Below, piece after piece: positions 1,032-40,840 of a DNA stretch of 41,834 nucleotides. The stretch covers positions 1-41,834 of the IMG/VR virus record IMGVR_UViG_3300034073_004613. One strand, given 5' to 3'. Position numbers and translations under genes: made by a program. The stretch is from a virus. The notes below the pieces were generated by a model. The model did not search any database. It was not told where the DNA came from and saw nothing but the letters and a program-made list of their open reading frames with translations. The number at the start of each line of letters is the position of its first letter. The first letter of the stretch is position 1.

Positions 1032-1682
1032 CTACTTAATTGGACAGTGATTTGCGCTGTAAATATATTTCCAATTTCTTTTAATATTCACACCTATTTT
1101 TTCAGCGGTTGTTATTATATCCTCTAAACATTCAGAATCAGAACCACCAACAATAATAACTTCTTTTCCTTTCATACTTAGAAGAAGTTTATATAGTTTT
1201 ATAGGAACATGAAACCACCTATGATTATTTCCTATGTAAACAATTAATGTTCCTTCTTTTGTTTCAAAACATTCTCCCTTTTGAAGTGTTCCGTCTAATT
1301 CTTTGCTTTTGATTAGTTTGTAGGTTTTCTCATCCAAAATACCCTTATTACCATCACTATTTTTCATTTTTGTATTATAGAAGTCAGAATCAACATCATA
1401 GTTGTATCTCTTTTCAATTAAATCCTTTTGATTTGGAAAATGATATAAGTCATCGTGTATTGGTATCTCTGGATTTTCATCATATAAGTATTGTTTGTCT
1501 ACATCTTTGCCATCAACATGATTATCAAATATTTGATAGACATGTTGAAAAGTCTCACAGTATTTTTTCAATTCATTCAAATACATTTCTGAAAAGTACT
1601 TTCTAAAGGATTTCTGAACATCAACTACAATAAGAGTATCTCCTATCTGTTCAAAGTCTTCATATAGTTTAAGGTATCTCAT
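1032..1682 (-). CDS. Isochorismatase/nicotinamidase-like cysteine hydrolase with N-terminal capsid-targeting-like tag
   Basis: 216 aa. After a 10-residue leader MRYLKLYEDF, the protein shows the isochorismatase-like fold signatures. They are D21 in a V-V-D-V-Q-x-x-F strand, K91 in E-K-R-Y-x-Y-x-V-x-S-D-F, and C185 in V-G-G-S-D-S-E-C-L-E-D. Asp-Lys-Cys is the known catalytic triad of this superfamily, so the enzyme is probably active. Members hydrolyse isochorismate, nicotinamide, N-carbamoyl compounds or similar amides; the substrate is not predictable here. The leader matches the tag shared by other proteins in this window and is absent from ordinary cellular isochorismatases, so packaging into the capsid is inferred. 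A TTAATATATAA box ends only three bases before the ATG. The 3' end abuts the amidoligase-like gene. Confidence 0.7.
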   Translation of the reverse strand: MRYLKLYEDFEQIGDTLIVVDVQKSFRKYFSEMYLNELKKYCETFQHVYQIFDNHVDGKDVDKQYLYDENPEIPIHDDLYHFPNQKDLIEKRYNYDVDSDFYNTKMKNSDGNKGILDEKTYKLIKSKELDGTLQKGECFETKEGTLIVYIGNNHRWFHVPIKLYKLLLSMKGKEVIIVGGSDSECLEDIITTAEKIGVNIKRNWKYIYSANHCPIK

Positions 1683-1685
1683 TAA

Positions 1686-1696
1686 TTATATATTAA
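1686..1696 (-). promoter_or_regulatory. Late-promoter-like box TTAATATATAA
   Basis: Exact copy of the recurring AT box, on the minus strand, ending 3 bases before the ATG of the isochorismatase-like gene. If it acts as a T4-late-type -10 element, transcription would begin almost at the start codon, giving a leaderless mRNA. Function inferred from recurrence at many gene starts. Confidence 0.5.
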
Positions 1697-1703
1697 ATAA
1701 AAA

Positions 1704-1723
1704 ACCCATCATTTCTGATGGGT
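1704..1723 (-). terminator. Rho-independent terminator after the Q/G/E-repeat gene
   Basis: Perfect 8-bp stem ACCCATCA / TGATGGGT around a TTTC loop, followed on the minus strand by a T-rich run. It sits between the repeat-tail gene (1745-2374) and the hydrolase gene, and would end the upstream minus transcript. The same CCCATC/GATGGG stem recurs near 7725 and 20540. Confidence 0.8.
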
Positions 1724-1744
1724 CGATGATAATATATTTTAAGA

Positions 1745-2374
1745 TTATTCTTCTGGAAGTTTTTCTTCTCCCTCTTCTTGTCCTTCCTCTTTCTCTTCTT
1801 GTCCTTCCTCTTTCTCTTCTTGTCCTTCCTCTTTCTCTTCTTGTCCTTCCTCTTTCTCTTCTTGTCCTTCCTCTTTCTCTTCTTGTCCTTGACCTTGTCC
1901 CTGTGGTTCTTCAAATTCTTCTTCTTTTTGTCCTTGGCCTTGAGTTTGTCCTTGGCCTTGAGTTTGTCCTTGACCTTGAGTTTGTCCTTGACCTTGAGTT
2001 TGTCCTTGAGCTTGTGGTTGAGTTTCCGCTTGAGCTTGTGGTTGAGTTTCTGTTTGAACTTGAGTTTGACCTTGTCCTTGTGTCTGAGTCTGACCACCCA
2101 TTATCGCACCTCCTGGAATTTTCTCAACATCTAAGAAATTCATATTAATATACTTAACAATTTCTTCAGCGATATCAACATCTCCAAAAAACTGACGAAG
2201 ATTCTTACCAGTTGTATCTTTAACTTTTTTAACATAAGCATTAATCAAAGATTGAGGAATATCAATCATAGTTTTAACCTTATATATGTCGTTTACTTGA
2301 AGAACTGATTCTTTGATAATCTCTTCTCTGTTCTTCTTAACACGATATTTTTCGAATGTTCTAATATGCTTCAT
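1745..2374 (-). CDS. Tagged protein with long TQGQGQ / EEKEEGQ repeat tail
   Basis: 209 aa. It starts with the tag-like MKHIRTFEKY, followed by a basic segment and an approximately 80-residue predicted helical domain (V-N-D-I-Y-K-V-K-T-M-I-D-I-P onwards). From about residue 93 the protein is low complexity: first Q/T/G/A repeats (TQGQGQ units), then acidic EEKEEGQ heptads to the C terminus. The reading frame, not its mirror frames, is supported by the tag, by the upstream AT box at 2400-2410 and by the downstream terminator. Highly acidic or glutamine-rich tails occur on DNA-mimicking and virion internal proteins, but nothing here shows a specific activity. The long ORFs in other frames are by-products of the repeats. 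Confidence 0.7.
   Translation of the reverse strand: MKHIRTFEKYRVKKNREEIIKESVLQVNDIYKVKTMIDIPQSLINAYVKKVKDTTGKNLRQFFGDVDIAEEIVKYINMNFLDVEKIPGGAIMGGQTQTQGQGQTQVQTETQPQAQAETQPQAQGQTQGQGQTQGQGQTQGQGQTQGQGQKEEEFEEPQGQGQGQEEKEEGQEEKEEGQEEKEEGQEEKEEGQEEKEEGQEEGEEKLPEE
1777..1890. repeat. 21-bp tandem repeat (about 5 copies) inside the coding region
   Basis: The string CTTGTCCTT recurs at 1777, 1798, 1819, 1840, 1861 and 1882, a strict 21-base period. The unit encodes the acidic heptad EEKEEGQ on the minus strand. Near-identical DNA copies imply recent slippage or unequal exchange, so copy number probably varies between relatives. Confidence 0.9.
1927..2064. repeat. 18-bp tandem repeat, then a 24-bp repeat, coding for Q/G-rich units
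   Basis: Five 18-base units beginning TTTGTCCTTG follow each other from 1927 to 2016 and encode TQGQGQ-type hexapeptides on the minus strand. A related unit of 24 bases then repeats about twice to 2064. Together with the 21-bp array this gives three repeat registers in one gene. Confidence 0.85.
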
Positions 2375-2399
2375 TTTTTTTAAGTATATTTTTTATAGG

Positions 2400-2410
2400 T
2401 TATATATTAA
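2400..2410 (-). promoter_or_regulatory. Late-promoter-like box TTAATATATAA
   Basis: Exact recurring AT box on the minus strand, 25 bases before the ATG of the repeat-tail gene at 2374, a normal spacing for a promoter with a short leader. Confidence 0.5.
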
Positions 2411-2431
2411 CTCTAAAAAGTCATTTTTTTC

Positions 2432-3470: not shown

Positions 3471-3755
3471 ATGGCAACAATCACAAAAAAGAAGACACAG
3501 TCTAAAGCTGACGAAATACTCTCTAAGCCTTATCGATTGATACTTCACAATGATGATTATAATACCTTTGATTGGGTAATCACTTGTCTTATGAAGGTTT
3601 GTAACCATGAGTTCGAACAGGCCTCACAATGTGCACATATTGTCCATTATAAAGGCAAATGTGATGTGAAGTATGGAGACTTAGAAATCATTTCTGAAAT
3701 GAAGAATAAACTTGCTAGTGCTGGTCTTAGTGTTACTATGGAAGTAAACAGTTAA
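3471..3755 (+). CDS. clpS: ClpS-like N-degron adaptor
   Basis: 94 aa, full length for ClpS. After a basic, disordered N terminus (residues 1-19) comes the ClpS core. It has Y-R-L-I-L-H-N-D-D-Y-N-T (residues 21-32) with the N-D-D residues that line the N-degron pocket, then the helix L-M-K-V-C-N-H-E-F-E-Q-A, then A-H-I-V-H-Y-K-G-K with the pocket histidine. ClpS hands proteins with destabilising N-terminal residues to the ClpAP/ClpCP protease. A phage copy could redirect host proteolysis during infection, which is inference. The phrase F-D-W-V-I-T-C-L and the C-x-V-x-x-G pattern resemble Bacteroidetes ClpS, hinting at acquisition from the host. Its stop codon overlaps that of the convergent terL within the bases TTAA. 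Confidence 0.9.
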   Translation: MATITKKKTQSKADEILSKPYRLILHNDDYNTFDWVITCLMKVCNHEFEQASQCAHIVHYKGKCDVKYGDLEIISEMKNKLASAGLSVTMEVNS

Positions 3756-5890
3756 ATGTTTTTACCAAACCAATCAATGTTTCTTGAGTTTGGATTTTTC
3801 CTTTGATTCTGTTTTCTCAATCTTAATACTTGTCCATAATCTAGTGATTCAACATGATCCATCTGATTAAGACAATTATTTACGTAACTTACAAAGTCTT
3901 TTGGTAAAAATTTATTAAACCACTCTTCCACCATCTCTTTATATTCATATTTTTGAATAATTGAAGTCATGTTGACTACGGTCATTACGGTGTCATCATG
4001 TCCAACATCGGCAGCATATCTTATGTTACCAGAGGATGTTATGTGTTTAACAAATGTGGTTATCTCTCTTATGTTCTCTTCATTTGTTATTATAATGCTT
4101 TTTGATTGTAGAAGACCTTGATAATCTTTGACTAACAGGTTTTTATTTTCCCCTACTTTAAGACCCATTTTTTCCTCGGTTGAGTCAATTCTGTGTTTGT
4201 ATCTAACAAACACAGAGGAACCATAGTTGTTTCTTCCTTCAAAAACATGTGGTAGTTCAGCAAAAAGAGCATTTCCATAGTTGTTTAACTCGACAACGAC
4301 TTTTACATTTTCAGGATTTAGATATTCAAATACTATCATATAAAGTAATTCAGCAAGCTGTTTAACCGAAACCAAATTACTTCTGTAAATGCCTATCTGT
4401 TCTAATCTAAAGAAATCAACTATAGAAGTATATGATAATTTTTGAATTTCTATTAATTCAGTTGGTTTTGGAGAAATCTTAAAAATGTTTATAACAGAGT
4501 AATCTTGACCTAATCCCTCGGATATATCGACCGAAATAACTACTTTGTAATCTTTTCTCCTAAGAGGTATGAATATCTCATCATCATCAATCCATTTTAA
4601 TTCGTTATAACTGAACTTAAGTCTTGAATCAAATTCTGGTATTTCTTCAAATAAAAAATTCTTTTTACCCTTTAATAATTCATCAATTATTGACTCACTT
4701 AATAATGATTTACTTGAATTGATAAATCTTAATCCATATTCTTGATTAAAGGCATCTTCTCCTCCTATATCTTTAATTGCTTCTTCTTTCCAAGTGGTCG
4801 TCTCCGCAATCATTCTTATAGGAACCTCATGTCCTTTTTTGTCAATGAATGTCATAGATTTAACCTCTTCATCCGAACACATCTCATTATTATAAACATA
4901 GATTATATCTTTTTGTATATCAATATTGTATATCATCTCAACTTTTGTTTTACCTTCCCATCTTTCTTTCATCAGTTGTAGAATGTCTTCTTTTGTTACT
5001 CCATGTTCATATAATTTATGATTATTTAATCTTATGTAAGTTAGGAATCTACCTGGTACTTGATACCAGTATACCCTCATTGGTTTATAGTTATTTTTTT
5101 GAGGATCACCATCAGGCCTTTCAGCATCGGTTAGTAATCTATGAAATAAATTCATACCATTTGGGGTTGATGTGATAATAATCTTAGAGTTTTGAACAGC
5201 TGATACAGTCGGAAATGCTGCCGTATAGTATGGTTCTATGATATTAGATGGGATGTGTGCAAACTCATCTAAATAAAGAACATCAATGGTAAAACCAATT
5301 GCTGGTGTTTTAGTTCTTGCTGATGTTTTTATTCTACATCCATTTTCAAATGTTAACGACTTTTGATTCCAGGTTTTTATACCAGGTTTGAGAAAGAAAG
5401 GAAGTAGTGAGTAGATTGACTTTATTTTATCTACAATTTCTATTGCTGTATCACCCTTATTTGCTACAATCATTATGTTCTTATCATTGTTAAATAAGAT
5501 GGTATGTAACATGAAAATTGATGATGATATAGTTTTACCAACCTGTCTTGACGCCATCAAGATATTAAATCTACTATTCATAAAATTATCAAGTATCTGT
5601 TTCTGATACTCTCTTAGTTTGATATTATTAATAGATCCATCTTCTGTTTTAACTTTACAATACTTCTCTGTGAAATAATGAACATCAAGTGCACATCTAA
5701 CATATTCTTGTTGTTCATCTGGTGTCATTTTAAATGTAACACCTGATCTTCTTAGACCGACTTCACTTTTTAGCCAAGGATTTTGAAATTTCTTTACAAC
5801 AACACCATCATTTATCTTGTCTGTTGCCTCATCTACTAATTTAGTAGTGAAAATCATTTGTTTTTCTATGGGTTGTTTACCAAAGGACAT
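3752..5890 (-). CDS. terL: Terminase large subunit (T4 gp17-type ATPase-nuclease)
   Basis: 712 aa. This is the motor that packages DNA into proheads and cuts the concatemer. The ATPase domain shows Walker A S-R-Q-V-G-K-T (residues 114-120), Walker B V-L-Y-L-D-E-F (204-210) and the coupling motif T-S-T-P-N-G (240-245). The RNase H-like nuclease domain shows acidic residues at D454 (I-S-V-D-I-S-E-G), E533 (V-V-V-E-L-N-N-Y-G-N) and D627 with D631/D632 (A-A-D-V-G-H-D-D). All key residues are present, so the enzyme should be active. The length is slightly above T4 gp17 (610 aa). The gene runs opposite to the possible small subunit and converges on clpS. Confidence 0.96.
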   Translation of the reverse strand: MSFGKQPIEKQMIFTTKLVDEATDKINDGVVVKKFQNPWLKSEVGLRRSGVTFKMTPDEQQEYVRCALDVHYFTEKYCKVKTEDGSINNIKLREYQKQILDNFMNSRFNILMASRQVGKTISSSIFMLHTILFNNDKNIMIVANKGDTAIEIVDKIKSIYSLLPFFLKPGIKTWNQKSLTFENGCRIKTSARTKTPAIGFTIDVLYLDEFAHIPSNIIEPYYTAAFPTVSAVQNSKIIITSTPNGMNLFHRLLTDAERPDGDPQKNNYKPMRVYWYQVPGRFLTYIRLNNHKLYEHGVTKEDILQLMKERWEGKTKVEMIYNIDIQKDIIYVYNNEMCSDEEVKSMTFIDKKGHEVPIRMIAETTTWKEEAIKDIGGEDAFNQEYGLRFINSSKSLLSESIIDELLKGKKNFLFEEIPEFDSRLKFSYNELKWIDDDEIFIPLRRKDYKVVISVDISEGLGQDYSVINIFKISPKPTELIEIQKLSYTSIVDFFRLEQIGIYRSNLVSVKQLAELLYMIVFEYLNPENVKVVVELNNYGNALFAELPHVFEGRNNYGSSVFVRYKHRIDSTEEKMGLKVGENKNLLVKDYQGLLQSKSIIITNEENIREITTFVKHITSSGNIRYAADVGHDDTVMTVVNMTSIIQKYEYKEMVEEWFNKFLPKDFVSYVNNCLNQMDHVESLDYGQVLRLRKQNQRKNPNSRNIDWFGKNI

Positions 5891-8684: not shown

Positions 8685-9116
8685 TTATTTGAAGTTTTTT
8701 AGAAAATTTAATTCATCTTTAGAAAGCGAATCTAAACCTGTTTCATTAATTTTATCAAGTATTTTATCGAGATCTAAAACTATTGAAACTACTTTTTTAG
8801 ATTTATCTTTTGATTTCTTATCTTTACTTTTTGGAGTTTTAATTGGTTTAATTTTCAAAAGTTTTTGAGCTTCTTTCTTTGTTATTGGACAATATTTTTC
8901 GCAGATATACATTTGTTCAGGTCTATCTTCATCTATTGCTGCAATAACCCAATCACCCGCTGATTCTACCCATATCTTTATTACTCCTTTATTTTTTAGT
9001 TCTAAAAGAGATTCTAATGAAAGAACATAGGAATCAGCTATGTTATTTAACTGTTGTTCATTGTGTGACTTGAGGTTTATACAAATCACCTTTTCGATGT
9101 TGAATTTGAGTGCCAT
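8685..9116 (-). CDS. Paralogue B: unknown N-terminal domain plus Bacteroidetes-type C-terminal module
   Basis: 143 aa. The N-terminal domain (residues about 5-85) is nearly the same as in the adjacent gene: K-V-I-C-I-N-L-K-S-H-N-E-x-Q-L, K-I-W-V-E-S-A-G-D-W, M-Y-I-C-E-K-Y-C-P-I-T-K-K-E. A lysine-rich linker follows, then the C-terminal block L-D-K-I-L-D-K-I-N-E-T-G-L-D-S-L-S-K-D-E-L. That ending resembles the short module (DUF6576-like) found at the C termini of many Flavobacteria proteins. Two conserved cysteines (C-E-K-Y-C) might bind a metal. Function unknown. Confidence 0.68.
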   Translation of the reverse strand: MALKFNIEKVICINLKSHNEQQLNNIADSYVLSLESLLELKNKGVIKIWVESAGDWVIAAIDEDRPEQMYICEKYCPITKKEAQKLLKIKPIKTPKSKDKKSKDKSKKVVSIVLDLDKILDKINETGLDSLSKDELNFLKNFK

Positions 9117-9119: not shown

Positions 9120-9611
9120 TTATTTATAATTTTTAAGAAAATCTAATTCTTCTTTACATAAAGAAGACATACCTGATATATTTATTTTATCTAAAATTGC
9201 ATCTAATTCAAGTATAACTTTTACTTTAGATTTGATAACTGGTTTAGTATCTGTCTTTACAATATCACTAGCATTTTTAACAACTTTTGGAATATTATTT
9301 TCAACGATCTTTTGAGTTGGTTTTTTCAACTTAGGTGTAGAAACTGGTTTGATGTTTTTAACAGACTCTCTTTCTTTTTTAGTCATAGGACAAAATCTTT
9401 CACAGATATAAAAATCATCAGGATTTGAAGTCTCTAAGGCAGCTATGGCATAGTCACCACCTGGCTCAATCCATATTTTGTAAGTGCCTCTTTGTTTACT
9501 TCTAAGTAATGCATCATAAGAAAGACGATAAACTTCAGAGATACTTCTCAATTGGTCTTCGTTGTGAGATTTTAGATTGATACAGATAACTTTGTTTATG
9601 TTGAATTTCAT
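9120..9611 (-). CDS. Paralogue A: unknown N-terminal domain plus Bacteroidetes-type C-terminal module
   Basis: 163 aa, first gene of the tandem pair, with three bases between it and paralogue B. It shares the N-terminal K-V-I-C-I-N-L-K-S-H-N-E and C-E-R-F-C-P-M-T-K-K-E motifs and the C-terminal L-D-A-I-L-D-K-I-N-x-x-G-M-S-S-L block. The linker between them is longer and has diverged, as expected for a disordered spacer. The C-terminal module is one I associate with Flavobacteria, supporting the host inference. The upstream promoter looks like a host-type promoter and not the AT box, so this pair may be expressed early. Confidence 0.68.
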   Translation of the reverse strand: MKFNINKVICINLKSHNEDQLRSISEVYRLSYDALLRSKQRGTYKIWIEPGGDYAIAALETSNPDDFYICERFCPMTKKERESVKNIKPVSTPKLKKPTQKIVENNIPKVVKNASDIVKTDTKPVIKSKVKVILELDAILDKINISGMSSLCKEELDFLKNYK

Positions 9612-9767: not shown

Positions 9768-12700
9768 ATGAAGTATGTAAAGAAGAGAGATAGTTTCCTA
9801 ACGGGAATAAAAGAATATAAAGAAACCGACAGTTATAAAAACTTAGAACTAATACAGGAAGACGGTGGTCCCCTCCATAATGCTGTTGAATTTGGAGATT
9901 CTTGGGTGGGTAGATGGATCCATAATATAATGAGAGCTGCTAAAGAAAAAGTAGACAAAATGAGAATCGCTGGTCAAATCAGAAGGTTAAAAATGGCATT
10001 AGATGACATAATTCAGAATGATGAGGCTGTTAAAATGGAGATTATAAAAGTAAGTAAAAAGGATCCTGGTCAAGAGACAACAGATCCTCTTAAAGGAGAT
10101 GACCTACACGATAAGTTTCTAAAACTTCAATTGCATGTTTTTTTAGATGAATTAAATGCAGCTGTCGAGAAGGGACACAAAGTGAGTATTATAAAATCTC
10201 TTACTGATAATGCTATAGAAGAAGTAGAGAAAACTCCTGAGTTTGAGGGAAAGAAAGAATTATTGGAACAACTTAAAAAATTCAAAGAGTTCTTAAAAGA
10301 CTTTGATGATGATGAGGGTAAAGAAGATCCTGACTTCAAACAAGAAAAGGGAGAAGGAGACGATGATGAAGAGGGAGATGAAGAAGATGAAGAAAAAGAA
10401 AGTGGAGATAATGAAGCTAAAAAGCTCTTCACTATGATAGAATCTTTGAAGTATTTAGCTCTTATAATAGAAACATACAAAAGAGTTAAGATTGAGAGTA
10501 AGGCTACTCAAAAGGAAGTTTATACTTACATAACTAAACCTGGTGATACAGTTGAAAAGATTCAAAAAAGTCAAGAAATTAATAAAAAGAAATTACAAAT
10601 AGCAGATATTCGTAGCAAAAATGAAAAGACACTAAAAAAATATGCTAAAGATAATCAAACTTTGGCTCCTAACTTGAAATTAGTTATGGAAAATGTAGAA
10701 GTTCTTTTCGAGGATGAAGACTGTTTTTATATTTTGAATGGTGAAGATTATATAATTTTAGAAAAAGAAACATTCGGAACTGGTGGAAGCGCTGATAGAC
10801 AAACTATCAAAACTTCTAATCAGAAAGGTGAGCCATTAAAACAAGGAGAAGACCATTTGACTCAAGCTTTTGCTAAACTTAAAAAAGATATCGAAGTTTT
10901 AGAATCTGATAAAGAAAAGGGAATAGGTATAACTCCTAAGTTTATTAATGATATAGTGGCTGTTTATAAAGAGACTGAAAATAGAACTATAATTCGATCA
11001 TTATATTCTGAAATCAATAGGTATTTAGTAGGTGATAAAAAAGCTACTATACAGGAAAAAGATCCGCTTTACAAAGAAAGTATTGAAGTAATTAAAAACC
11101 TACCTAAAAGAGTAGTTGTTGCTGAGAAAATAGCAAGATTTACAAAAAGAGCTATTCAGTTTGATGGTGAGAATCTTTATGGGGGTCTTGGTGATTTAGG
11201 TAAAAATCTCAAAGGATACGTTGAGTCTATGAAAAAAATTATGACTTATAAAATTGGTGAATCTAAAGAAAAGGGAGAAACTAAGTTTAAAGTTGGTGAT
11301 TTAGTTACTTGGACTAATAAAGAAGGTAAAACAATCACTAAGAAAATTGAAAAAATTGAAAATGGTAAATATGTCTTTAAAAAAGAAAGTGGTGAAGAAT
11401 ATACCAAAAAAGAGGACACTTTGAAAAAGGCAGAGCCTAAAAAAGAAGAGGAACCTAAAAAAGAAGAAGAAGCAAAGAAAGAATCAAGACTATTAAGATA
11501 TGACAACTATTATAGACTTATAACAGAGGCTGACGATAAAGAGGGAGTTCTTTCTGAAGTTAGTAGAAAGATTTTAGAGTTTTGGAGAGCAAACGTAGAA
11601 GTAAAAGCATATATTTTAAATAAAGAAGAGTTTGAAAAACTATTAAAAGAATTAGAAGATGCTGAACTTAATCAAGAGGTAGAGATGCCGGTTTCCGAGG
11701 GTGATCCTAAGGCTGACAAATTGCCTGAACCTAAGAAAAAGAAAGTCAAGTTAGACGGTCTTGCATTTACTATCGATCCAGTTCTTCGTATTGTGAAGGC
11801 ATTCAACAAAGCTTATAAATTACATACTACAGAAGTTATTCCTTCTGGTAGAACAAGTGGTGCGGTGTCTAATAGAATCTTTAGACAGTATACCTCTCTC
11901 GGTAGTGGTAGTCCAGATAGTGCTGGTAAATCTGGTGGTCCTTATAGAAATAATGCTGTATTTAATAAGTGGGAAGAAGCTGTATTGGATGTAATGGGTG
12001 AGAGTAAATATCAAAAGATTTTTTCACCATCTACCGTTCTATTGAGAGGAGAAGATTTAGTGGAAAAGGCTGGTGCTAACTTAAGATTATTCATGTCAGA
12101 TCTTTTGGATGGCGATAAACTTTATAAAGGAAGTGGTAGTTCTGGTGAAAAAGGAGCTCAATCTCAATTTTTAGATAAGTATTTTGGTTGGAAAGGAGAT
12201 GATAAGGTTCTTTATGATGGTGGATCGAATGAGCAAAAAGAAACAGGTGCTGTAGCGACAGAAGTTGATAAAAAGACCAATGAACAAATTGTGTCATTTA
12301 CAAAAGATGATATCAAATTTACACAAGTTTCTGAGTTAGTTGGTACTATGTTCAAATTAGAAGATGCTGATGGTGATAAGTCTTATTATTTCTATATACA
12401 CGAGGTATCTGGTGATTATTTCTATGTGACTTATACTAGAGGTTATAAATTCTATCATGATTTGATTCATAAAGAAGGTAAATATGGATTTCCAGATCTT
12501 TCTAAAATAAAAGGTGATGGTAAAACACCTAATGATAGCTACAGTTCGGGTGATGGTGAGTGGGTTATTAGAGCAACAAAGATTGCGACTAGAAATTTTG
12601 ATACTAAGACTGGAAAATTGAAACCAGCGACTTATGAGTCTGTTTATATTAGAAAGAAGGATAAAAAGCCTTTTACAAATAAGCAGGATGAAGTTGAAAA

Positions 12701-12896
12701 GTCATCGGAAAAAGACAAATTAACAGCAAAGGCGGGTAAAATATTTATATTGTCAGTTAAAAAGGATAAAGATGATAAAGAACCTAAGTTTGCTACTATT
12801 GAGAAAAAAGATAATCTTAAGGAAAAAGGTATATTCCCCGCTATAAAGAACACTAAAGGTATTGGTGATAGCGATGTGATTTTCAAAATTCAATAA
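9768..12896 (+). CDS. Large tagged candidate internal/core virion protein with LysM-like segment
   Basis: 1042 aa, strongly charged and lysine/glutamate-rich. It begins with a divergent tag, MKYVKKRDSF, and an L-I-Q-E stretch at residues 28-31. Residues 175-220 are an extremely acidic stretch (D-D-D-E-E-G-D-E-E-D). Residues about 250-308 resemble a LysM peptidoglycan-binding unit (Y-I-T-K-P-G-D-T-V-E-K-I then L-A-P-N-L-K-L). Residues 506-555 contain an F-K-V-G-D-L-V-T-W segment like a small beta barrel. At 574-588 a second tag-like stretch, L-L-R-Y-D-N-Y-Y-R-L-I-T-E-A, could be a protease site. The C-terminal half looks globular. I infer a prohead core or packaged protein processed by the prohead protease. 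One base separates it from the next gene. Confidence 0.6.
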   Translation: MKYVKKRDSFLTGIKEYKETDSYKNLELIQEDGGPLHNAVEFGDSWVGRWIHNIMRAAKEKVDKMRIAGQIRRLKMALDDIIQNDEAVKMEIIKVSKKDPGQETTDPLKGDDLHDKFLKLQLHVFLDELNAAVEKGHKVSIIKSLTDNAIEEVEKTPEFEGKKELLEQLKKFKEFLKDFDDDEGKEDPDFKQEKGEGDDDEEGDEEDEEKESGDNEAKKLFTMIESLKYLALIIETYKRVKIESKATQKEVYTYITKPGDTVEKIQKSQEINKKKLQIADIRSKNEKTLKKYAKDNQTLAPNLKLVMENVEVLFEDEDCFYILNGEDYIILEKETFGTGGSADRQTIKTSNQKGEPLKQGEDHLTQAFAKLKKDIEVLESDKEKGIGITPKFINDIVAVYKETENRTIIRSLYSEINRYLVGDKKATIQEKDPLYKESIEVIKNLPKRVVVAEKIARFTKRAIQFDGENLYGGLGDLGKNLKGYVESMKKIMTYKIGESKEKGETKFKVGDLVTWTNKEGKTITKKIEKIENGKYVFKKESGEEYTKKEDTLKKAEPKKEEEPKKEEEAKKESRLLRYDNYYRLITEADDKEGVLSEVSRKILEFWRANVEVKAYILNKEEFEKLLKELEDAELNQEVEMPVSEGDPKADKLPEPKKKKVKLDGLAFTIDPVLRIVKAFNKAYKLHTTEVIPSGRTSGAVSNRIFRQYTSLGSGSPDSAGKSGGPYRNNAVFNKWEEAVLDVMGESKYQKIFSPSTVLLRGEDLVEKAGANLRLFMSDLLDGDKLYKGSGSSGEKGAQSQFLDKYFGWKGDDKVLYDGGSNEQKETGAVATEVDKKTNEQIVSFTKDDIKFTQVSELVGTMFKLEDADGDKSYYFYIHEVSGDYFYVTYTRGYKFYHDLIHKEGKYGFPDLSKIKGDGKTPNDSYSSGDGEWVIRATKIATRNFDTKTGKLKPATYESVYIRKKDKKPFTNKQDEVEKSSEKDKLTAKAGKIFILSVKKDKDDKEPKFATIEKKDNLKEKGIFPAIKNTKGIGDSDVIFKIQ

Positions 12897-12897: not shown

Positions 12898-13452
12898 ATG
12901 AAACATTTACTAACTTTTGGTCTTTTTTTAGAAAAGGTGGATATTAAAGATACTGATCCAGCTCATATTAGACTTGCTAAAGACAAATTAAATTCAACTG
13001 AAGATTATTTGACTCAATACCCTAATTTAAAGGCAAAGATAGATAGTATCTATAAAGCTAATAAAGATAAACCTGAGTCAGAGGTTTATAAACAAGTTTT
13101 GGATTCTTTGGGTAAAGATGCTAAGTTAAGAAATCCCTTCGCTGTAACTTATGCTGAAGTAGCAAAATTAGAAATAGAAATTAAAAAAATGACAGATAGT
13201 ATTTTAGTTGATGATACTGGAATGAAATTATCTTCTCAAAATCTTTCATTGGCAACTTCTGAAGATACTAAGAAAAAAATGCAAACAGATTTGATTCAAA
13301 TGAAGAAAAATCTTGATACAAAAAAGAAAAAACTCGAAGATAGTTTAAAACAAGTAGATAAGTCAAAGCAGCAAGTAAATACTGAAATCACGAAAACACA
13401 GAAAGAAATTGCTGAGGCTTCTAAAAAATTAGCCGAAAAGGAGAAAAAATAG
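12898..13452 (+). CDS. Tagged lysine-rich coiled-coil protein, candidate internal/scaffold protein
   Basis: 184 aa. It starts MKHLLTFGLFLEK, a clear copy of the shared tag with F7 and F10 and an F-L-E stretch. The rest is helical and polar; residues about 95-184 form one long lysine-rich coiled coil ending A-E-K-E-K-K. The start lies one base after the stop of the 1042-aa gene, so the two are co-transcribed and probably coupled. T4 core and internal proteins are likewise small, basic and helical with a removable leader, which is the basis for the role proposed. No enzymatic motif is present. Confidence 0.65.
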   Translation: MKHLLTFGLFLEKVDIKDTDPAHIRLAKDKLNSTEDYLTQYPNLKAKIDSIYKANKDKPESEVYKQVLDSLGKDAKLRNPFAVTYAEVAKLEIEIKKMTDSILVDDTGMKLSSQNLSLATSEDTKKKMQTDLIQMKKNLDTKKKKLEDSLKQVDKSKQQVNTEITKTQKEIAEASKKLAEKEKK

Positions 13453-13513: not shown

Positions 13514-16500
13514 ATGGCAATTCAAATTGGAAAATACAAAAGACCAGGAATCTTCATAGAAGAATTTGACAATTCAGTTATCTCTTCTCCTATTGTAGAA
13601 GGAATAACTAACATGGTTATCGGGGTTTCTAAAAAGGGTCCTGTTAATACTCCTATTAGATTGACTACAACCGGAGATTTAGAAGCGGTTTTTGGTCAAC
13701 TTGACAGAGGGCTAGAAAGAAAAGGTTCTTATTTCCACAGAACTATTACTAAGATGTTGGAAACAAGTCCTATATTTGCTATCAATCTTTTATTAACAGA
13801 TGATACATTAGATGTGATTGAGTATAAATCTCTTTCATCATCTTCTGGATATATGAATGATATAAAAAGAGAAGGTCCTTATAGAAGATTTTTTGATACA
13901 ACTGGTTTCTGGAAGAGAGACACTGAGTCTTTTATCAATTTAACAAAAAACAACACTGGTTATACAGAGAGAGCATTCAATATAACAAATTTATCTGATA
14001 AGACTATTTCAGTTTTTATTATCAAGTCTCCTATTTCTGGTTTTGATAGAACGTTAATTGAATGGTATGGAACTATTGATAAAATGCCTCCTTATGTTAA
14101 TCAAAATGATTTTGCATCTGACTATTTAGTAGATGTGGTTGTTGTTGGTGGTGACTGGTCAAACTACCAAGAGCTAGCTGTTGATAACAGATGGAGTGCT
14201 TACTTCAACGCTTCTGGTTTGAGAAAAGACCAATTAAGAAATTTTGCCAATGATAGAAATGTTTCGCTTTTAGCTTATTATGAAGGTCTTTCTTTAATTC
14301 CTTATTTCAGAGATGGAAATGGAAGAAATATATTTATTGAGACTACAATTAATAGAGATACTGATAGAACTGGATTATTCTGTTCATTTAACACAGATTT
14401 AGTTGAAAAAGACTACTATACTGGTATGTTAGATTTACTTGGTAATACTATTGTTGATCAATCTGAAACTGATATAGATTTTCTTTCTTACAAAGAAACA
14501 ATCGCTGAGTCAGTTATGTTTGAGGCTGTTCCTCTAGATTTACCAGGTAATGTTACTGCTATGTTAAGTAGTGCAACATTTGGATATAATGGTGGTTATT
14601 CCTCACCAACAGGTCACGCTTTTGAATCAGCTCTTAGTAATCCACAAACATCTGGTGTATTAGTAAATGAGAATAATAGAACACCTTGGTTCGCTGAGGG
14701 TTATGTTCATAATGTTGAAAGAGCTTCTTCTGTGGCTTCTTCAACCTCTTCTATAACTGTTACTTATAATGTTTCAGCAGAAGCTTATTGTGTTATAGGT
14801 GATACATATATACCTGTTTCAGCGACAACTTCTCTAACAATTGATTCATTAGACTATCCTGTTTCTGCTTCAACTCAGGTTTATTTCTCAGCATTTGTTT
14901 TAGATGCATCTGGAGAAATTAGTGAAGTAAAAACAACAACTGCAAATACAAGACCAACTGTTGATCCAAGTGATATCGTTTTAGGATATGCTACATTTTC
15001 AGTTGCATCTGGTCAATTTGTAGGTAGTCCTTTTGTTAAAAATGTTAGTGTTAATACAAGTGGATTTAATGATTTCGTATTTGGAACAAATTCTGCAACT
15101 GATGATTTCTTTGTTACAAATTTAGGTAGTGGTTCTATTAAAATTGAATTTATTGGAACAAGTGCAAAAGCTTCTACCGCTAATTATGAGCAATATAGAA
15201 GAATTAAACAATTCAATAGAATGATTGATCTTATTGATAGTCCAAATAAAAATAAAATGAGTCTTTTATTAGGTCCTTCTTCTGGATATAGAAAGGTTAG
15301 TATGAGTACAATGACTATTTCAAATATCGTTACATCAAATGTTCTTAATAAATCCTTTACTATTAATACAGGACTTACTACAGCTGAGTTAGTTGATGTT
15401 CTACAGGGTTATCTTGTTTTCTATACAGAGGATAATGAAATGCTAATTGGTTCTTTAGGTATGGATACAACTGAACAAGTTCATGGTGGAACTTATGGTG
15501 TTGTTGGTAAGTATTCTAAATTTTATGGAAGATTTTTTGATGGTATTATTAGCACAAAAGATTTCTTTTATGATAATAGATTATATGTTTATTCAGATGG
15601 GGATGCTAATACAATAGCAACTCTTGGTAAATCAGTTAACATTACATTTGTTGATGGTGAGACTGTAACAAGTGCTACATCTTCTTACGCTGGTTATGAT
15701 TACATTGTATTCGAGTATGATTCTAGTAATTTTGATACACAAATAGAGTTAGAAACATTTGAACAACTTGTATTTCCGGATTCAGATTTGAATAAAGGTT
15801 CTTTTACAATAGTGACAAATACTGTTGAGCCTTTAGATTCTCCTTCGGCATTAGCTTCTAACTTGGGATTCGTTAATACTGCTACTCAGTTTTATTTCGC
15901 TTACCAAGTAAATGAAGAGGTAAACTATGAATATTTAACAGAAGTAACTACTGTTCAAGATTACTTAACTAAACATTACTTAAAAATGTATTTAGAGAAT
16001 AATGGTGATTTGAATGTTAGATTTACAGATGTTTTATTAGAATCAGATGAACCAGCAGACTTTGTTGCAAATGCTAAGTTTATGGTACAATCTGAAAAGA
16101 GTAATCTTAAACAAACAATCGAAGTTGAACTTCCATCTGGATATACTAGAGTTCCTAACAAAGTTTTGATAAATGGTACTCGTTATACTGAAGTAAAAGT
16201 AGGTGACTTCTTAGAAGCTTATGTTGATACAACATTACTTCAACCAGGAGAAGCTCCTAGAAAACTTACAAGAATTTTAAGTAAGAGACAATATGCGGGT
16301 GACCCAACTCTTACAGAAGTTACTTGTGATGCTAGAATTAACACTTATAGTTTTGATGGTGATTTACAAACTACTAGATTTGTATCAGTTGATCAATATG
16401 CTACTACTTATAAAGCAATATCACTTAAAGGATTTAGAATTAGACAAGCTTCTCTTCCTGATGGAACTGAAGAAAGACAAAATCAAATATTGAATCTTGT

Positions 16501-20579: not shown

Positions 20580-21200
20580 TTAGTATCCGGAAACTAAAGG
20601 TGGATTAATTGTAAAGTTTTGGTCGATATACTCATCAATGAAGTAATCATATAAGAAATCAGCTTGTGAGTTCTCAATGATGTTATTACCTGACCAATCA
20701 AGATCATAACCTTGTAATTTGGTAATTTGAACATTTTGATATGTAACCCTTCTTAATACAACACCCTTTTTATCATGTTGATTTACAATGATAGTTCCGA
20801 TGATATCACTCTTGTAATGTAATGATCCATTTTGAGAGTTAAATACTAAGTCATACCAAGCTTTCATAGTGTTCCAAGTTTCCATAGAACCTTGATTATT
20901 AACATTCACCTGAATAGGAATAGAAAGTGTACCATCAGTTTTTGTAGGAGTTGATAAAAACATTCTTGTTGAATACTTGAATCTTTGAGTTTTTGCTGCA
21001 ACGTCAAATTCAGTAGTCTGCATACCTATCTTTGTTGCATTTTGTAACAACAAAATTGGATCTCTTCCTTGTGCTTGTAAGATAACTGGTAAAATAAAAG
21101 TTATCTCAAATAAGTTTAAGTAAACTACTTCATCTGGTAGTGTACCTGGTCCCCCAGGGGAACCTGAATTTATGACCTGGGTAAAATGAGGTAATGGCAT
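20580..21200 (-). CDS. Tail tube protein (T4 gp19-like)
   Basis: 206 aa. The segment V-V-Y-L-N-L-F-E-I-T-F-I-L-P (about residues 25-38) is the gp19-family signature, followed by a beta-rich body and an acidic, aromatic C terminus (D-F-L-Y-D-Y-F-I-D-E-Y). The length is near T4 gp19 (163 aa) with a proline/glycine-rich N-terminal extension. The protein forms hexameric rings that stack into the inner tube through which DNA passes. It lies on the strand opposite to the sheath, separated by a shared terminator, whereas in T4 the two are adjacent and co-directional. A baseplate-tube (gp54-like) paralogue cannot be excluded. Confidence 0.75.
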   Translation of the reverse strand: MPLPHFTQVINSGSPGGPGTLPDEVVYLNLFEITFILPVILQAQGRDPILLLQNATKIGMQTTEFDVAAKTQRFKYSTRMFLSTPTKTDGTLSIPIQVNVNNQGSMETWNTMKAWYDLVFNSQNGSLHYKSDIIGTIIVNQHDKKGVVLRRVTYQNVQITKLQGYDLDWSGNNIIENSQADFLYDYFIDEYIDQNFTINPPLVSGY

Positions 21201-24580: not shown

Positions 24581-24619
24581 CTAAAACCTGATTGTGTCAA
24601 ATAGTTTTAAGTACCTCAT
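24581..24619 (-). pseudogene. 12-codon orphan tag ORF (remnant of a tagged gene)
   Basis: On the minus strand an ATG overlaps the stop of the cupin-like gene as ATGA, the usual coupled-start arrangement. It reads MRYLKLFDTIRF before TAG. MRYLKLFD is the same tag as on the hydrolase at 1682 (MRYLKLYED). The S51 peptidase begins 23 bases after this stop, in another frame. The simplest reading is that a tagged gene, or a tagged version of the peptidase, was broken when the GC-rich peptidase arrived. A functional mini-leader is the alternative. Confidence 0.6.
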
Positions 24620-24876
24620 AACTTCTGTAATTTTATTTTCAAATCACCGGTTCCTTTTATTAGTCTATGATAAATACCCATTGGTATAAAAACTTCTCCC
24701 CTTATTTGTTTAGGTAATTCATTATCAATTTGAATCATCCAATCTGTTTCACCGATAGATTCAATTATACGATTTTCAAAATCTCGATGCCACATAAATT
24801 CACCAGAATCTGTATCTTGTTTGAACTCTCTGATAAATGTATTATCACTTAATTTAGTTTCTTTAAATGGTAACAT
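24616..24876 (-). CDS. Small cupin-like phage protein
   Basis: 86 aa. The pattern F-M-W-H-R-D-F-E-N-R-I-I-E-S-I, D-W-M-I-Q-I-D-N-E-L-P and V-F-I-P-M-G-I-Y-H-R-L-I-K-G matches a short beta-barrel, cupin-like protein often found in marine T4-type phages. The two histidines (H30 in W-H-R-D and the later Y-H-R) are placed like cupin metal ligands. The reaction is unknown. It has no tag, unlike most of the island. It starts four bases after the metallopeptidase stop, and its own stop overlaps the orphan tag ORF, so it is part of the minus-strand operon. Confidence 0.65.
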   Translation of the reverse strand: MLPFKETKLSDNTFIREFKQDTDSGEFMWHRDFENRIIESIGETDWMIQIDNELPKQIRGEVFIPMGIYHRLIKGTGDLKIKLQKL

Positions 24877-24880: not shown

Positions 24881-25669
24881 TTATTTATTATATAAACCTA
24901 GATAGTATTTTAATTTCTGAGGAAATTCCGTTCCCGCTGCTTTTATCTTTTGATACAATTCATCAGACATATCTTTATGTCTTTTACGAAACTCATCAGG
25001 AGACATAAACCATAAATATAAATTCAATTTTTCTTTGGATCTTTCTACCATGTCTATTTCACGAAGTTTTTTCAAATCCATTTTGGTTTCTCCTGGGTAT
25101 TTTTTTGAGTATAAATAAGCGAATTGTTTTGCATGAGAATCTACTTCCTTTTTTGATGCTAAGTATGAATATCCTTCATCTTCACCTGATTTAAATCCTT
25201 CTTTTTCTATATTTGCAATATGTTGAACCTCATGTTGTAAACTCGATTTTAGGGCATCTACTGGATAATTAAATAATTTAGTAGTTCCTATTTCAATGCC
25301 TTCGGTTCTTATAGGATCATTTTTTGATTTTATTGCAGCTCCTTCACTCTTTGGTATCAAACGTATAAAGAAATCTTTTTGCAGAGATTTAAATGATTTC
25401 TTAATAATTGGATCAATCTGGTCAAAATCAGTTAATAAAGTAGCTGGCTCTGATGATAATCTTATATTTTGATAAGGTTTATAATGTTTTTTTATAAACT
25501 CACTTATACTTAAATTTCCTGGATTTTTTTGATAATAAATTGAAATTTGAGACTTGAAATCTAAAAGCACATCTCTAAGGAATTTATAAATCAATTTTAT
25601 AGATTTATTTTCATCTTCACTTAAATATTCAGCATTTTCGAATAGACTGTATGTTTTTAGATACTTCAT
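24881..25669 (-). CDS. Tagged zinc metallopeptidase (HExxH)
   Basis: 262 aa from the ATG at 25669. A longer frame to 25717 would overlap the upstream gene and hide the tag, so I reject it. The leader MKYLKTYSLFENAE is a clear tag with an L-F-E stretch. At 146-150 is H-E-V-Q-H, preceded by S-L-Q. It is followed at 169-180 by Y-L-A-S-K-K-E-V-D-S-H-A, placing E175 as the likely third zinc ligand of a gluzincin-type peptidase. The N-terminal 130 residues are helical. If packaged, it could act on the prohead, on host proteins after entry, or on the cell envelope; none is proven. The spacing to the upstream gene is 14 bases. Confidence 0.72.
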   Translation of the reverse strand: MKYLKTYSLFENAEYLSEDENKSIKLIYKFLRDVLLDFKSQISIYYQKNPGNLSISEFIKKHYKPYQNIRLSSEPATLLTDFDQIDPIIKKSFKSLQKDFFIRLIPKSEGAAIKSKNDPIRTEGIEIGTTKLFNYPVDALKSSLQHEVQHIANIEKEGFKSGEDEGYSYLASKKEVDSHAKQFAYLYSKKYPGETKMDLKKLREIDMVERSKEKLNLYLWFMSPDEFRKRHKDMSDELYQKIKAAGTEFPQKLKYYLGLYNK

Positions 25670-25683: not shown

Positions 25684-26643
25684 TTACCAGAATCCCGGAT
25701 AAGTTTTTCCGCCCCACAAATGTCCATATTTATTTATGCGACATGCCCAGTATCCAGCCTTTGTCTTATCCTTCTTTGTAGAACATTTATGACGAGCAGC
25801 AAATGACTTTCTTGCCTTAGGATTGCTCACCTTAGCAGTTAATCCACCGTGAACATCACCAAAAGAAATCTTTTTAACCTTACCAGTTTTAGGATTCTTT
25901 ACATAAACTTGATATTTTTTAGTACCACCACGCATTGGATAATTTAACTTAACTTTTTTACCCTTATATTCCGCCTCATTTACTTCTTCTATATTTTCCA
26001 TAGGTAAATCCAAAGGAACCTTTTTCCCATTAAAATAACCAAAGTTACCTATCTCGGTCTCTCTGTATAATGATTCATCAATACTACAAAGTTTTATTTT
26101 ACCAGAATCATATAATCTTCTAGCTTCTGTTAAAACATTAAAGAAAGATTTTGAACCAGGTCTAAAAATACTTTCTGTTATTGGTTTGTTGTTGGTTAAG
26201 TGCCATTTTAAGTTCTCCGATACTTCAGGCATTGAGACAAATTGAACTTGTAAGTCACCACACTGACAGTCATCACATCCACAATCACACTCAGAGTCTC
26301 CTGTGCAATCATCACAACAACCACATCCTTCACCTTCTTCATATTCTGATTCAAATTCATCATCATCATCATCATCTTCATATTCACCGATTTCAAATTC
26401 GTTTTCACATTCCATATTTTCAACATTATCAATATTGATGGTTATGAATGATTCAAATTTTTCAACTTTATTTTTCTTAAGATTATTTAATTCTTTTTCA
26501 TCGTGTTCAACAGGTTCAGTTTTGATACCTAATCCCATGATTTCTTCTTTCTCATTTTCTAAAGATTTAGCTGAGAATCCAAAGTCTTCTTCTTTAACTT
26601 TTTTTTCTTTCTTCTTTTCGTTGAATTTTCTGAGATGTTTCAT
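25684..26643 (-). CDS. Tagged acidic/Cys-rich protein with DUF5872-like C-terminal domain
   Basis: 319 aa, at least four parts. It starts MKHLRKFNEKKKEKK, a tag copy with F7 but lacking the second aromatic. Residues about 85-130 are an acidic run (D-D-D-D-D-D) followed by a dense cysteine cluster (G-C-G-C-C-D-D-C, then C-D-C-G-C-D-D-C-Q-C) likely to bind metal. Residues about 150-225 form a small domain with N-F-G-Y-F-N-G-K-K-V-P-L-D. The C-terminal about 95 residues (R-K-S-F-A-A-R-H-K-C ... G-Y-W-A-C-R) resemble DUF5872, a small basic module of T4-like phages. Its function is not known to me. Its stop is two bases... 14 bases before the metallopeptidase start, and it begins two bases after the AAA+ gene ends. 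Confidence 0.65.
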   Translation of the reverse strand: MKHLRKFNEKKKEKKVKEEDFGFSAKSLENEKEEIMGLGIKTEPVEHDEKELNNLKKNKVEKFESFITINIDNVENMECENEFEIGEYEDDDDDDEFESEYEEGEGCGCCDDCTGDSECDCGCDDCQCGDLQVQFVSMPEVSENLKWHLTNNKPITESIFRPGSKSFFNVLTEARRLYDSGKIKLCSIDESLYRETEIGNFGYFNGKKVPLDLPMENIEEVNEAEYKGKKVKLNYPMRGGTKKYQVYVKNPKTGKVKKISFGDVHGGLTAKVSNPKARKSFAARHKCSTKKDKTKAGYWACRINKYGHLWGGKTYPGFW

Positions 26644-26645: not shown

Positions 26646-28004
26646 TTATTTTTTAGTTTTTATAAGATATTTCTTTATAAGTAGTTTCCAAACAGGTTCT
26701 TCTCTATCACCAATTCTCATTATTTCTTCGTTTCCAGCTCTTAAGTTTATTGAGTGAATTAGAGTTCTGATGTTGAGGTCAAATTTCACCGGATAGTTAT
26801 CAGTAACATAAATTAGGTATTCTAAAGCTTCTTCTTTTAGTTTCATATCTAATTCTGGTGATATTCTTGACATAATCTCTTTCATTCTTGAAATGATTTC
26901 TTCTTTGTTAAGATTTACATCAACATGTAGAGACCTAGAAAGAATTGCGTCATCGAATTTCTCTTCTGCTAAATTAGAAATGAAAATCACCTGACCTGAA
27001 AATTCGAATCTGTTAGGTAACATTCTTCCCTCTTTTTCTTCATATTCTTGTTGAATTTCTAAATCACTCATACCTGTTGAGTCAAAAGTGTTACCTTTTG
27101 TCAGTTTAGATAGTTCTCTTACTGGATAAGTATCTAAAGCTCCTTTAAGTAAGTTTACTGAATCGGCATCTTTTAGAACAGCATCACAATCATCAAAGAT
27201 GATTAACTTATTTCTGTGTTTGAATAGGACTTCAAATAGACCAGCTGTTGTAATGGTGCCTGTTGATTTATAATAGTGAACATCTGGTTGCATTCCAATA
27301 GATCTTAGCGTGTCTGTTACAACTGAAGTTTTACCAACACCCGCTTGTCCACTTACAATTAGAGAATTACTTTTACCTCTTGCAACTTGTATTGTGTATA
27401 ATTCAATAGCTTTGAAAATATCAATTTTAAGATCTTGAACAGTTATTTTATCTGATTCTTTTTCAGCCTTGTCTGTGGTTGCAACAATTGCTCTTAGTTG
27501 TTCAATTCTTCTTTCAATTTTTTCAACGCTAGTTGGAGACTTTGCTCTTTTTCTTTTCTTTTCCCACTCTTGGAGCTCTTCTTTTGGATCATAAGTTTCT
27601 TGTAGTTCTGTTTCTTCTACCTTTTGAATCATTGATTCCGGATTATTGAAGAAGTCTACTACAAAAGGTAAATGTTTAACAATTGATTCATCTTTAGGTA
27701 TAAAGAGAGTAAATTCTGGATTCTTCTCAAATTCAAAATTCAACCATAAATCTATTGAATGTATTACATTTCTAATGTCATCTTCTTTCCAATTTATTCT
27801 AATGGCCTTTGTTGTTTTAAGAGAAATAAATAATTGACCTCTTAGAAAGTCCATTCCTTTTTGAATAAAGAATATTTCGTTATATGGATATAAATCATTT
27901 CCAGTCTTTCTTTCGATAAATTCTGTTATTTTTTGTATAGCATCTTCTTTATCCTTGGATAGAAATGCCTCTAAAAATAGTTCGTATTTTTTTAAGATTT
28001 TCAT
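26646..28004 (-). CDS. Tagged AAA+ ATPase
   Basis: 452 aa. The leader MKILKKYELFLEA is a clear tag with Y7, F10 and an F-L-E/A site. Residues 20-125 form an N-terminal alpha/beta domain; 130-185 are charged helix. The AAA+ core shows Walker A G-Q-A-G-V-G-K-T (219-226), Walker B K-L-I-I-F-D-D-C-D (266-274), sensor-1 asparagine in F-I-S-N (344) and a probable arginine finger in I-L-S-R-S (357). A helical lid follows to the end. The class cannot be fixed; it resembles phage AAA+ proteins of unknown role. It is the first gene of the minus-strand island, with an AT box 6 bases before its ATG. Confidence 0.85.
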   Translation of the reverse strand: MKILKKYELFLEAFLSKDKEDAIQKITEFIERKTGNDLYPYNEIFFIQKGMDFLRGQLFISLKTTKAIRINWKEDDIRNVIHSIDLWLNFEFEKNPEFTLFIPKDESIVKHLPFVVDFFNNPESMIQKVEETELQETYDPKEELQEWEKKRKRAKSPTSVEKIERRIEQLRAIVATTDKAEKESDKITVQDLKIDIFKAIELYTIQVARGKSNSLIVSGQAGVGKTSVVTDTLRSIGMQPDVHYYKSTGTITTAGLFEVLFKHRNKLIIFDDCDAVLKDADSVNLLKGALDTYPVRELSKLTKGNTFDSTGMSDLEIQQEYEEKEGRMLPNRFEFSGQVIFISNLAEEKFDDAILSRSLHVDVNLNKEEIISRMKEIMSRISPELDMKLKEEALEYLIYVTDNYPVKFDLNIRTLIHSINLRAGNEEIMRIGDREEPVWKLLIKKYLIKTKK

Positions 28005-40002: not shown

Positions 40003-40023
40003 ACAAAACTTTTTACTTAAGGA

Positions 40024-40034
40024 GTATATATAAA
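40024..40034 (-). promoter_or_regulatory. Late-promoter-like box TTTATATATAC (tape-measure operon)
   Basis: Variant AT box on the minus strand, 21 bases before the tape-measure ATG; drives the five-gene operon. Confidence 0.5.
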
Positions 40035-40050
40035 ATAAGGCTATGTTTCT

Positions 40051-40061
40051 TTAATATATAC
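40051..40061 (+). promoter_or_regulatory. Late-promoter-like box TTAATATATAC
   Basis: Exact AT box ending 4 bases before the ATG at 40066, again close enough to give a leaderless mRNA. Confidence 0.5.
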
Positions 40062-40065
40062 TAAT

Positions 40066-40527
40066 ATGAAACTAACTAAGATTATTAAACATTATTTGTT
40101 GGGTAAATCCGTAAAAGAAATGGAAATGAATAGAATTTTAGAAAAAATATCAAGCAAAAAGAAGTTAAGTGACAGAGAGAAAAATTTCTTAGAACTTTAT
40201 CAATCAACTCGTGATGAAGATTTAAAGGATTATGTTTATCTTTCTAAAAACTCTACTTTTTCTAAAGTAAGTCAATTACTTGAGAATGAAAAGAAGGTTA
40301 TATGTGATTTGTGTGATAAAAACGGTAAAATTGGTCTACAAATTATTTCAATAGAAAATCAATTCGAAACCGAAAAGTGTATTTTAACATTCAAAAACAA
40401 AGAAACACATTTCTTACATGATAAGTTTCTTTATAATTTAATTTACAATGTTAAAAAAGACGAGTATTCACTTCAAGAGCAAGATGAATATTTCGAAAAA
40501 ATAACAACCAAAAGTGATGAAGATTAA
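40066..40527 (+). CDS. Hypothetical charged protein with C-x-x-C
   Basis: 153 aa, basic N-terminal helix (M-K-L-T-K-I-I-K-H-Y-L-L-G-K) then a helical charged half, then a beta-rich half from about residue 75. It has one C-D-L-C pair near residue 83 that might bind a metal only if dimeric. No family recognised. The leader looks partly like the shared tag but lacks the aromatic spacing, so I do not count it. The next gene starts 11 bases before this one ends. Confidence 0.62.
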   Translation: MKLTKIIKHYLLGKSVKEMEMNRILEKISSKKKLSDREKNFLELYQSTRDEDLKDYVYLSKNSTFSKVSQLLENEKKVICDLCDKNGKIGLQIISIENQFETEKCILTFKNKETHFLHDKFLYNLIYNVKKDEYSLQEQDEYFEKITTKSDED

Positions 40528-40840
40528 AAGATTCGGAGAGTTTAATGAAGCTATTTCTGGAACTGAACTAGTAGGTAATATATCTATGGGTCCTGCTTAT
40601 GGTGAAACTAGATTGCAGAATAAAACGGTTGGTAAAAGACATACAACTGCTGAATATTCAAAAGATTTGAATAATCCTGATTCTGGTAATACACTTACTA
40701 GTGATATTTTCTTTGATGATCAATATTCGGATATCTATAATCAATATCTTAAGAGTGGTGGTTCACAATCTGAACTTACGGATGATAGAGGTTTAAATAT
40801 GAAAATTATGATGGATTTTTTACGAACATCCAATAGTTAA
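40517..40840 (+). CDS. Small tagged protein
   Basis: 107 aa from the ATG at 40517; a GTG directly before it is in frame but unlikely as the start. The leader MKIKRFGEFNEA is a tag copy with F6 and F9 (one residue shorter) and a possible F-N-E/A cleavage site. The rest is polar and looks partly disordered (G-N-I-S-M-G-P-A-Y-G-E-T-R, then D-I-F-F-D-D-Q-Y-S-D-I). It overlaps the upstream gene by 11 bases. Its small size and tag fit a packaged internal protein. Confidence 0.6.
   Translation: MKIKRFGEFNEAISGTELVGNISMGPAYGETRLQNKTVGKRHTTAEYSKDLNNPDSGNTLTSDIFFDDQYSDIYNQYLKSGGSQSELTDDRGLNMKIMMDFLRTSNS

Follow-up and report, generated by a model that had tools for sequence, protein, structure and literature searches.

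The internal proteins (IPs) of phage T4 are variable, act against restriction and have only their leader in common (PMC12373910). IPII and IPIII start MKTYQEFIAE/A, where the slash, here and below, marks a known or candidate cut. Residues 4 and 7 of IPIII are needed for targeting and residues 8 and 10 for cleavage, and the protease gp21 cleaves after L-x-E or I-x-E (PMC9026906). The phages phiKZ and SPN3US, which have S80 proteases, carry in their huge heads many proteins that are matured by proteolysis, with a cut after Glu, and are ejected (PMC5694885), and the first 30 residues of P1 DarB direct a reporter into the capsid (PMC9024508). Here we describe a short N-terminal tag on otherwise unrelated proteins of IMG/VR virus record IMGVR_UViG_3300034073_004613 (positions 1 to 41,834; this whole 41.8 kb stretch is called the window) and of its relatives. 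Judged by its sequence, the tag is very probably a T4-type capsid-targeting sequence (CTS). The first-pass annotation of the window had proposed such a T4-equivalent signal, and every prediction of it that could be tested on sequence held.

The window terminase shares 76% identity with that of LR745206 (W01, 634,780 bp) and with that of LR756502 (W02, 642,428 bp), and 41-44% with those of LR756504 (W03, 636 kb) and LR756501 (W04, 735 kb), while the terminases of Tenacibaculum phage PTm1, phage PAU and T4 are more distant. These sequence relationships mark the window as part of a huge phage of the Mahaphage type. The Mahaphage clade takes in genomes of 634, 636, 642 and 735 kb, with Bacteroidetes as predicted hosts (PMC7162821). 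We compared W01-W06 and T4 in full, along with half of LR756500 (W08). Genes in these genomes were called by our own script, so gene counts are approximate.

Nine window proteins had been reported to begin with one pattern, and all nine peptides are present at their coordinates and on their strands. They are listed here with a tenth gene that had been overlooked:

1032-1682 (-), tag codons about 1647-1682: MRYLKLYEDF protein, tag p = 0.0003
1745-2374 (-): MKHIRTFEKYRVKKNREEIIKE/S protein with a low-complexity Q/G/E-rich body, tag p = 0.0003
9768-12896 (+): 1042-residue protein MKYVKKRDSFLTG, tag p = 0.0003
12898-13452 (+): MKHLLTFGLFLE/K protein, adjoining the tail sheath gene, tag p = 0.0003
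22827-23768 (-): MKYLKLYESF P-loop protein with Walker A GPSASGKT, tag p = 0.0003
24881-25669 (-): MKYLKTYSLFE/N protein, metalloprotease-like, with an HExxH motif (HEVQH) and the top tag score (21.8 bits)
25684-26643 (-): MKHLRKFNE/K protein, tag p = 0.0003
26646-28004 (-): MKILKKYELFLE/A AAA ATPase-like protein (phrog_1250, 9e-35), tag p = 0.0003
40517-40840 (+): MKIKRFGEFNEA, with the short-class tag MKIKRFGEFNE/A, tag p = 0.006
23838-24557 (-): cyanophycinase (TIGR02069, 148 bits; cut-off 126.6)

These p-values come from a position-specific tag model, trained on W01 and W02 only (the window being left out) and calibrated on 6158 peptides beginning at internal methionines (internal Met). 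Eight of the nine reach its floor of p = 0.0003, the ninth being the 40517 protein. Among the 35 window genes, eight pass p < 0.002 against 0.07 expected (binomial 6e-15), and a regular-expression (regex) form of the tag finds 7/35, where internal Met would give 0.3 and shuffled sequences 0.65. Read from an in-frame alternative ATG at 24536, the cyanophycinase starts MLIKNFGDWLVE/SF and is apparently tagged too, in the short class; this tenth tag is called on its core pattern, since the tag model scored the gene poorly. Just upstream of it, at 24581-24619 (-), lies a 12-codon open reading frame, MRYLKLFDTIRF followed by a stop, whose start overlaps (ATGA) the stop of gene 24616-24876. It is either a tag stranded by gene loss or exchange, or chance.

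Several of these tags recur in orthologues. That of the 1745 protein is retained in W02 and W01, the positional counterpart of the 9768 protein in W01 (172579-174963) starts MKYLSKRSEYLKSAKYKVINE/S, the W01 orthologue of the 12898 protein starts MKYLKKYKIFLE/A and the W02 orthologue of the 26646 protein starts MKIKKYQAFYE/A; a scan of viral sequences with the 26646 protein returned no relatives. The short class of the 40517 protein recurs as MIKKFYQFINE/I in W01 and MAIKSFKSFNE/E in W02. In the 1032 family, all eight homologues retain the tag, followed by a variable linker. AlphaFold (AF2), with alignments built from window and IMG/VR rows only, left residues 1-13 of the 1032 protein unordered and placed the body from residue 16. 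This body weakly resembles a cysteine-hydrolase or isochorismatase-like fold, and sequence and fold searches of the PDB for the 1032 protein gave no significant match.

The search over N termini of relatives that the first-pass annotation had proposed found the tag far above chance at gene starts. The regex form occurs 66 times in W01 and 89 times in W02, against 3.2 and 5.8 expected. A strict anchored mixture model puts the tag on 122/878 genes of W01, 139/870 of W02, 67/810 of W03 and 30/251 of the LR756500 half. When starts are re-chosen and the short class is counted too, these numbers become 158, 175, 63 and 28, with 73/928 in W04, against a chance rate of 0.04-0.3% per internal Met. The consensus is M-K-[YH]-[LI]-K-x-[YF]-x-x-F-E in W01 and W02, MKYIKEYEEFLNES in LR756500 and M-[EN]-N-L-K-x-Y-x-x-F-x-x in W04. 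Phe and Tyr together make up 0.78-0.90 of residues at position 7 and 0.52-0.74 at position 10, and stand at least one residue earlier in the short class. An exact search for MKYLKxYxxFE found it in 75 viral stretches, and 75/79 matches lie at plausible gene starts, whereas 257 Gb of bacterial and archaeal genomes hold it in six stretches only, one of them at a plausible start. Taken together, the sequences indicate that the tag is confined to gene starts, is selected as protein and sits on unrelated bodies.

Scored with the W01-trained tag, T4 showed no excess and PTm1 few matches, while the scan of PAU revealed a different tag of PAU's own, MK[ST][LI]xxLYExKLNE[AS]. The PAU tag genes are interspersed among genes for portal-like, protease, scaffold-like and major capsid protein (MCP)-like products, and the C termini of the portal-like protein and the protease carry a similar LYESIK motif. 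In Prevotella phage Lak-B1 (MK250020), at 480-520 kb, several proteins near an S77 protease start with a LYES/LFES-like core (e.g. MSVYNTIPRNLKQRLYESI and MINKLFESLD), which raises the possibility of a tag like that of PAU in Lak phages. N-terminal extensions of phage ribosomal protein S21 have been described as basic and aromatic (PMC7162821); the three S21 proteins that we read carried no tag.

A hydrophobic-x-E motif had also been noted just after many tags, and this holds as a statistical tendency, with enrichment at a fixed position, but not in every protein. [ILVM]xE peaks at one tag position: at E11 in W01 and W02 (23-27%, against 2-4% of untagged proteins) and at E13 in LR756500 (57% against 3%). 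S or A follows the peak motif 2.4-6 times more often than it follows [ILVM]xE elsewhere. Some tags have the aromatic-x-x-aromatic spacing followed by (I or L)-x-E and then S or A, for example MKYIKEYEDFINE/A, MENMLKYQEFINE/A and MIKKYLDFIKE/S, and the relatives' tags MKYIKEYEDFINEA, MENMLKYQEFINEA and MIKKYLDFIKES have the spacing and cut site of the T4 leader.

A matching protease is present in the relatives. All nine full records searched contain a gp21-type (S77) domain, five above the Pfam cut-off and the four nearest relatives below it, and the T4 triad H85/S140/D168 is conserved in an alignment of the protease from eight genomes. Directly after the protease domain, the huge-phage proteases carry [LIV]-N-E-[SA], likely a self-cut site. 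W04 also has a second weak S77 match at 11386-11787 (-). W01-W04, the four nearest relatives, encode the protease as a fusion with a scaffold-like region, in which 11-13 tandem repeats of 14 residues (KNIAYSEYIAENLD) each contain aromatic-x-x-aromatic-[ILV]-x-E (core YSEYIAEN), and in all four genomes this protein is the richest in internal copies of the tag core. The repeat KNIAYSEYIAEN occurs in 10-15 copies at 79 further IMG/VR loci, and 10/16 large tag-bearing contigs, including all four above 300 kb, match the protease-scaffold profile. At locus L386 (G016:149472-149714 (-)), a second frame of 214 residues matches only the scaffold repeats of that profile. A structure model of the fusion protein has a low overall confidence, with a predicted local distance difference test (pLDDT) of 48; its usable part is the repeat region (residues 236-446), predicted to be one long helix. 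The tag thus resembles the scaffold repeat in its core, and we offer this likeness as a hypothesis for how the tag works.

The tag appears to be a detachable add-on module. The 122 tagged W01 proteins fall into 117 BLAST clusters, in line with the unrelated bodies described in the first-pass annotation; they are therefore not paralogues, and descent of whole tagged proteins from a common ancestor is ruled out. An RNA ligase resembling T4 Rnl1 is tagged in W01 and W02, while in W03 and W04 it is untagged and starts right at the domain. In one orthologous pair, the bodies are 85% identical and the tags different.

The cargo is also distinctive. A set of 120 tagged W01 proteins matched 17 PHROG families, against 98 for 120 random untagged proteins, among them families of helicases, methyltransferases and translation factors. 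The tagged proteins that can be recognised include NUDIX hydrolases, an RNA ligase, a methyltransferase, a guanylate cyclase-like protein, an M15 peptidase and a lysozyme; in the window they are the AAA ATPase, the P-loop protein, the HExxH protein and probably the cyanophycinase. The terminase large subunit (TerL), sheath, tube, portal-like and MCP-like genes are untagged, three of them in the window:

3752-5890 (-): terminase large subunit, untagged, which places the window among Mahaphage-type huge phages
13514-17455 (+): tail sheath (phrog_34521, 3e-90), an untagged structural control
20580-21200 (-): tail tube (phrog_45, 1e-13), an untagged structural control

Beside the terminase gene, at 3471-3755 (+), lies a ClpS-type Clp protease adaptor (PF02617, 2e-19), and in W01 a similar gene adjoins the terminase. 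The genes at 8685-9116 and 9120-9611 (-) are tandem paralogues. The first matches DUF6576 below threshold, and the tagged sets of W01 and W02 each contain one match to this family as well.

Homologues in sister genomes are fewer for tagged than for untagged proteins (37% vs 54% from W01 to W02, and 9% vs 27% from W01 to W03), indicating a faster turnover of the tagged genes, most of which are orphans. Such turnover fits the variable, anti-restriction internal proteins of T4, and together with the RNA ligase and NUDIX domains it is at most suggestive of entry into the host. A single copy of every tagged W01 protein amounts to about 34,000 residues, or some 3.7 MDa by arithmetic. The protein mass of the SPN3US head is reported to exceed 40 MDa (PMC7411985); against that figure the tagged load is physically plausible, as ten copies of each protein would come close to it.

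These observations support capsid targeting: the spacing is that of T4, the protease triad is conserved, the scaffold shares the core, PAU has its tag genes in a head cluster, the tag is nearly absent from cellular genomes, and the cargo is fast-evolving and orphan. During head assembly, the short amphipathic leader would dock on the prohead core, probably through its likeness to the 14-residue repeat of the protease-fused scaffold, and the shell would close around the core with its docked cargo. The gp21-type protease would then cut after (I, L or F)-x-E, scaffold and leader would be removed, and the mature proteins would remain beside the DNA inside the head and probably be ejected into the host. 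The huge phages of this clade would use this address on some 120-175 otherwise unrelated, fast-changing proteins. We consider packaging of the tagged proteins very likely, and ejection into the host somewhat favoured.

Several points weigh against this interpretation. The strict [ILVM]xE site lies within residues 9-20 in 43-80% of tagged proteins rather than in all (about half in W01 and W02 and a larger share elsewhere, some of the others having F-x-E). The window stops short of its own protease gene, so the protease is known from relatives only. The full tag profile picks out the scaffold repeats in W04 and not in W01-W03, which limits the mimicry to the shared core. The tagged lysozyme of W02 is odd as injected cargo, some window genes lack a tag although a relative's orthologue has one, and virion proteomics was found for none of these phages.

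The tagged proteins could instead be sacrificial core or scaffold parts, like T4 gp67 and gp68, that enter through the tag and are then degraded and expelled rather than delivered. Many are indeed small (median about 160 residues) and without known domains, and their tag resembles the scaffold repeat core. However, 120-175 different, rapidly exchanged genes are unlike a core, and several encode recognisable enzymes (NUDIX, RNA ligase, methyltransferase, lysozyme), so we regard this as improbable. We give a still smaller chance to a sorting signal for some non-capsid destination, such as a membrane, a phage-made compartment or a replication site. Short basic and aromatic amphipathic N termini may generally act in localisation, but such a signal leaves the position of the cut site with its S or A, the repeat of the protease-scaffold protein, the PAU head cluster and the T4 match without a reason. 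Replication and translation families, which are seen among untagged proteins, are also essentially missing from the tagged set, bar one weak Toprim match.

The tag might also act as nucleic acid, either as an early-codon translation enhancer or as DNA spread by recombination, without any function of the peptide. Many genes of these genomes have starts rich in lysine and AT, and in IMG/VR contigs G009 and G013 (behind loci L335 and L352) the 30-nt tag DNA ATGAAATACTTAAAATTATTTGAAAACTTT is nearly identical across many genes, which suggests recent copying of the tag itself. In W01, by contrast, the tag has many synonymous codings (KYLK in 15 among 31 genes). The spacing of the conserved residues is that of a helix and a protease site, only some of the genes are tagged, and bacterial and archaeal genomes are almost devoid of the tag, making this very unlikely. 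Chance or compositional bias has next to no probability: the proteomes of these AT-rich genomes abound in Lys, Tyr, Phe and Ile, but the internal-Met and shuffle controls and a reversed-pattern control (0-1 per genome) speak against it. Together with codon diversity, these controls led us to reject chance, composition and DNA-level explanations.

If capsid targeting is correct, the head contents of the largest known phages become readable from sequence. A tag of 10-13 residues would list well over 100 probable capsid proteins per genome, nearly all of unassigned function and likely rich in counter-defence factors. It would also suggest that cargo is chosen by likeness to the scaffold repeat core, and provide a modular address with which proteins could be loaded into capsids of very large size. 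A bolder version, to which we give an even chance, is that 15-20% of Mahaphage-type genes form an injected effector set with a modular N-terminal zip code mimicking one scaffold-repeat unit, so that the product of any gene gaining some 12 codons would be packed, clipped and delivered. We found no earlier description of this tag system within the open-licence papers searched.

How does this system compare with those already described? The N termini of the P1 Dar proteins are without a consensus, whereas the tagged proteins here share one. With phiKZ and SPN3US, these phages would share huge heads with many proteins that are matured by proteolysis and ejected, and a cut after Glu. The propeptides differ: those of phiKZ and SPN3US are mostly longer than 100 residues, with A-x-E in SPN3US, against about 8-22 residues and (I, L or F)-x-E here. 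The closest match is T4. As in its CTS, a short N-terminal leader is common to unrelated bodies, two aromatics stand three apart, and (L or I)-x-E ends the leader with A or S next, here as a statistical enrichment; the relatives encode a gp21-type protease with the same H/S/D triad, and the cargo is variable and accessory, like the T4 internal proteins. The leader has 1-3 more residues ahead of the first aromatic and is usually M-K-[YH]-[LI]-K, the tagged genes number 120-175 against three IPs plus Alt in T4, and in the four nearest huge phages the protease and a scaffold form one protein, with the core repeated in tandem in its scaffold part. New are the scale, the extra length of the leader, a protease-scaffold fusion that has this core too, and the occurrence of the system in the largest phages known. 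These sequences are best read as a capsid-targeting system like that of T4, enlarged at least tenfold.

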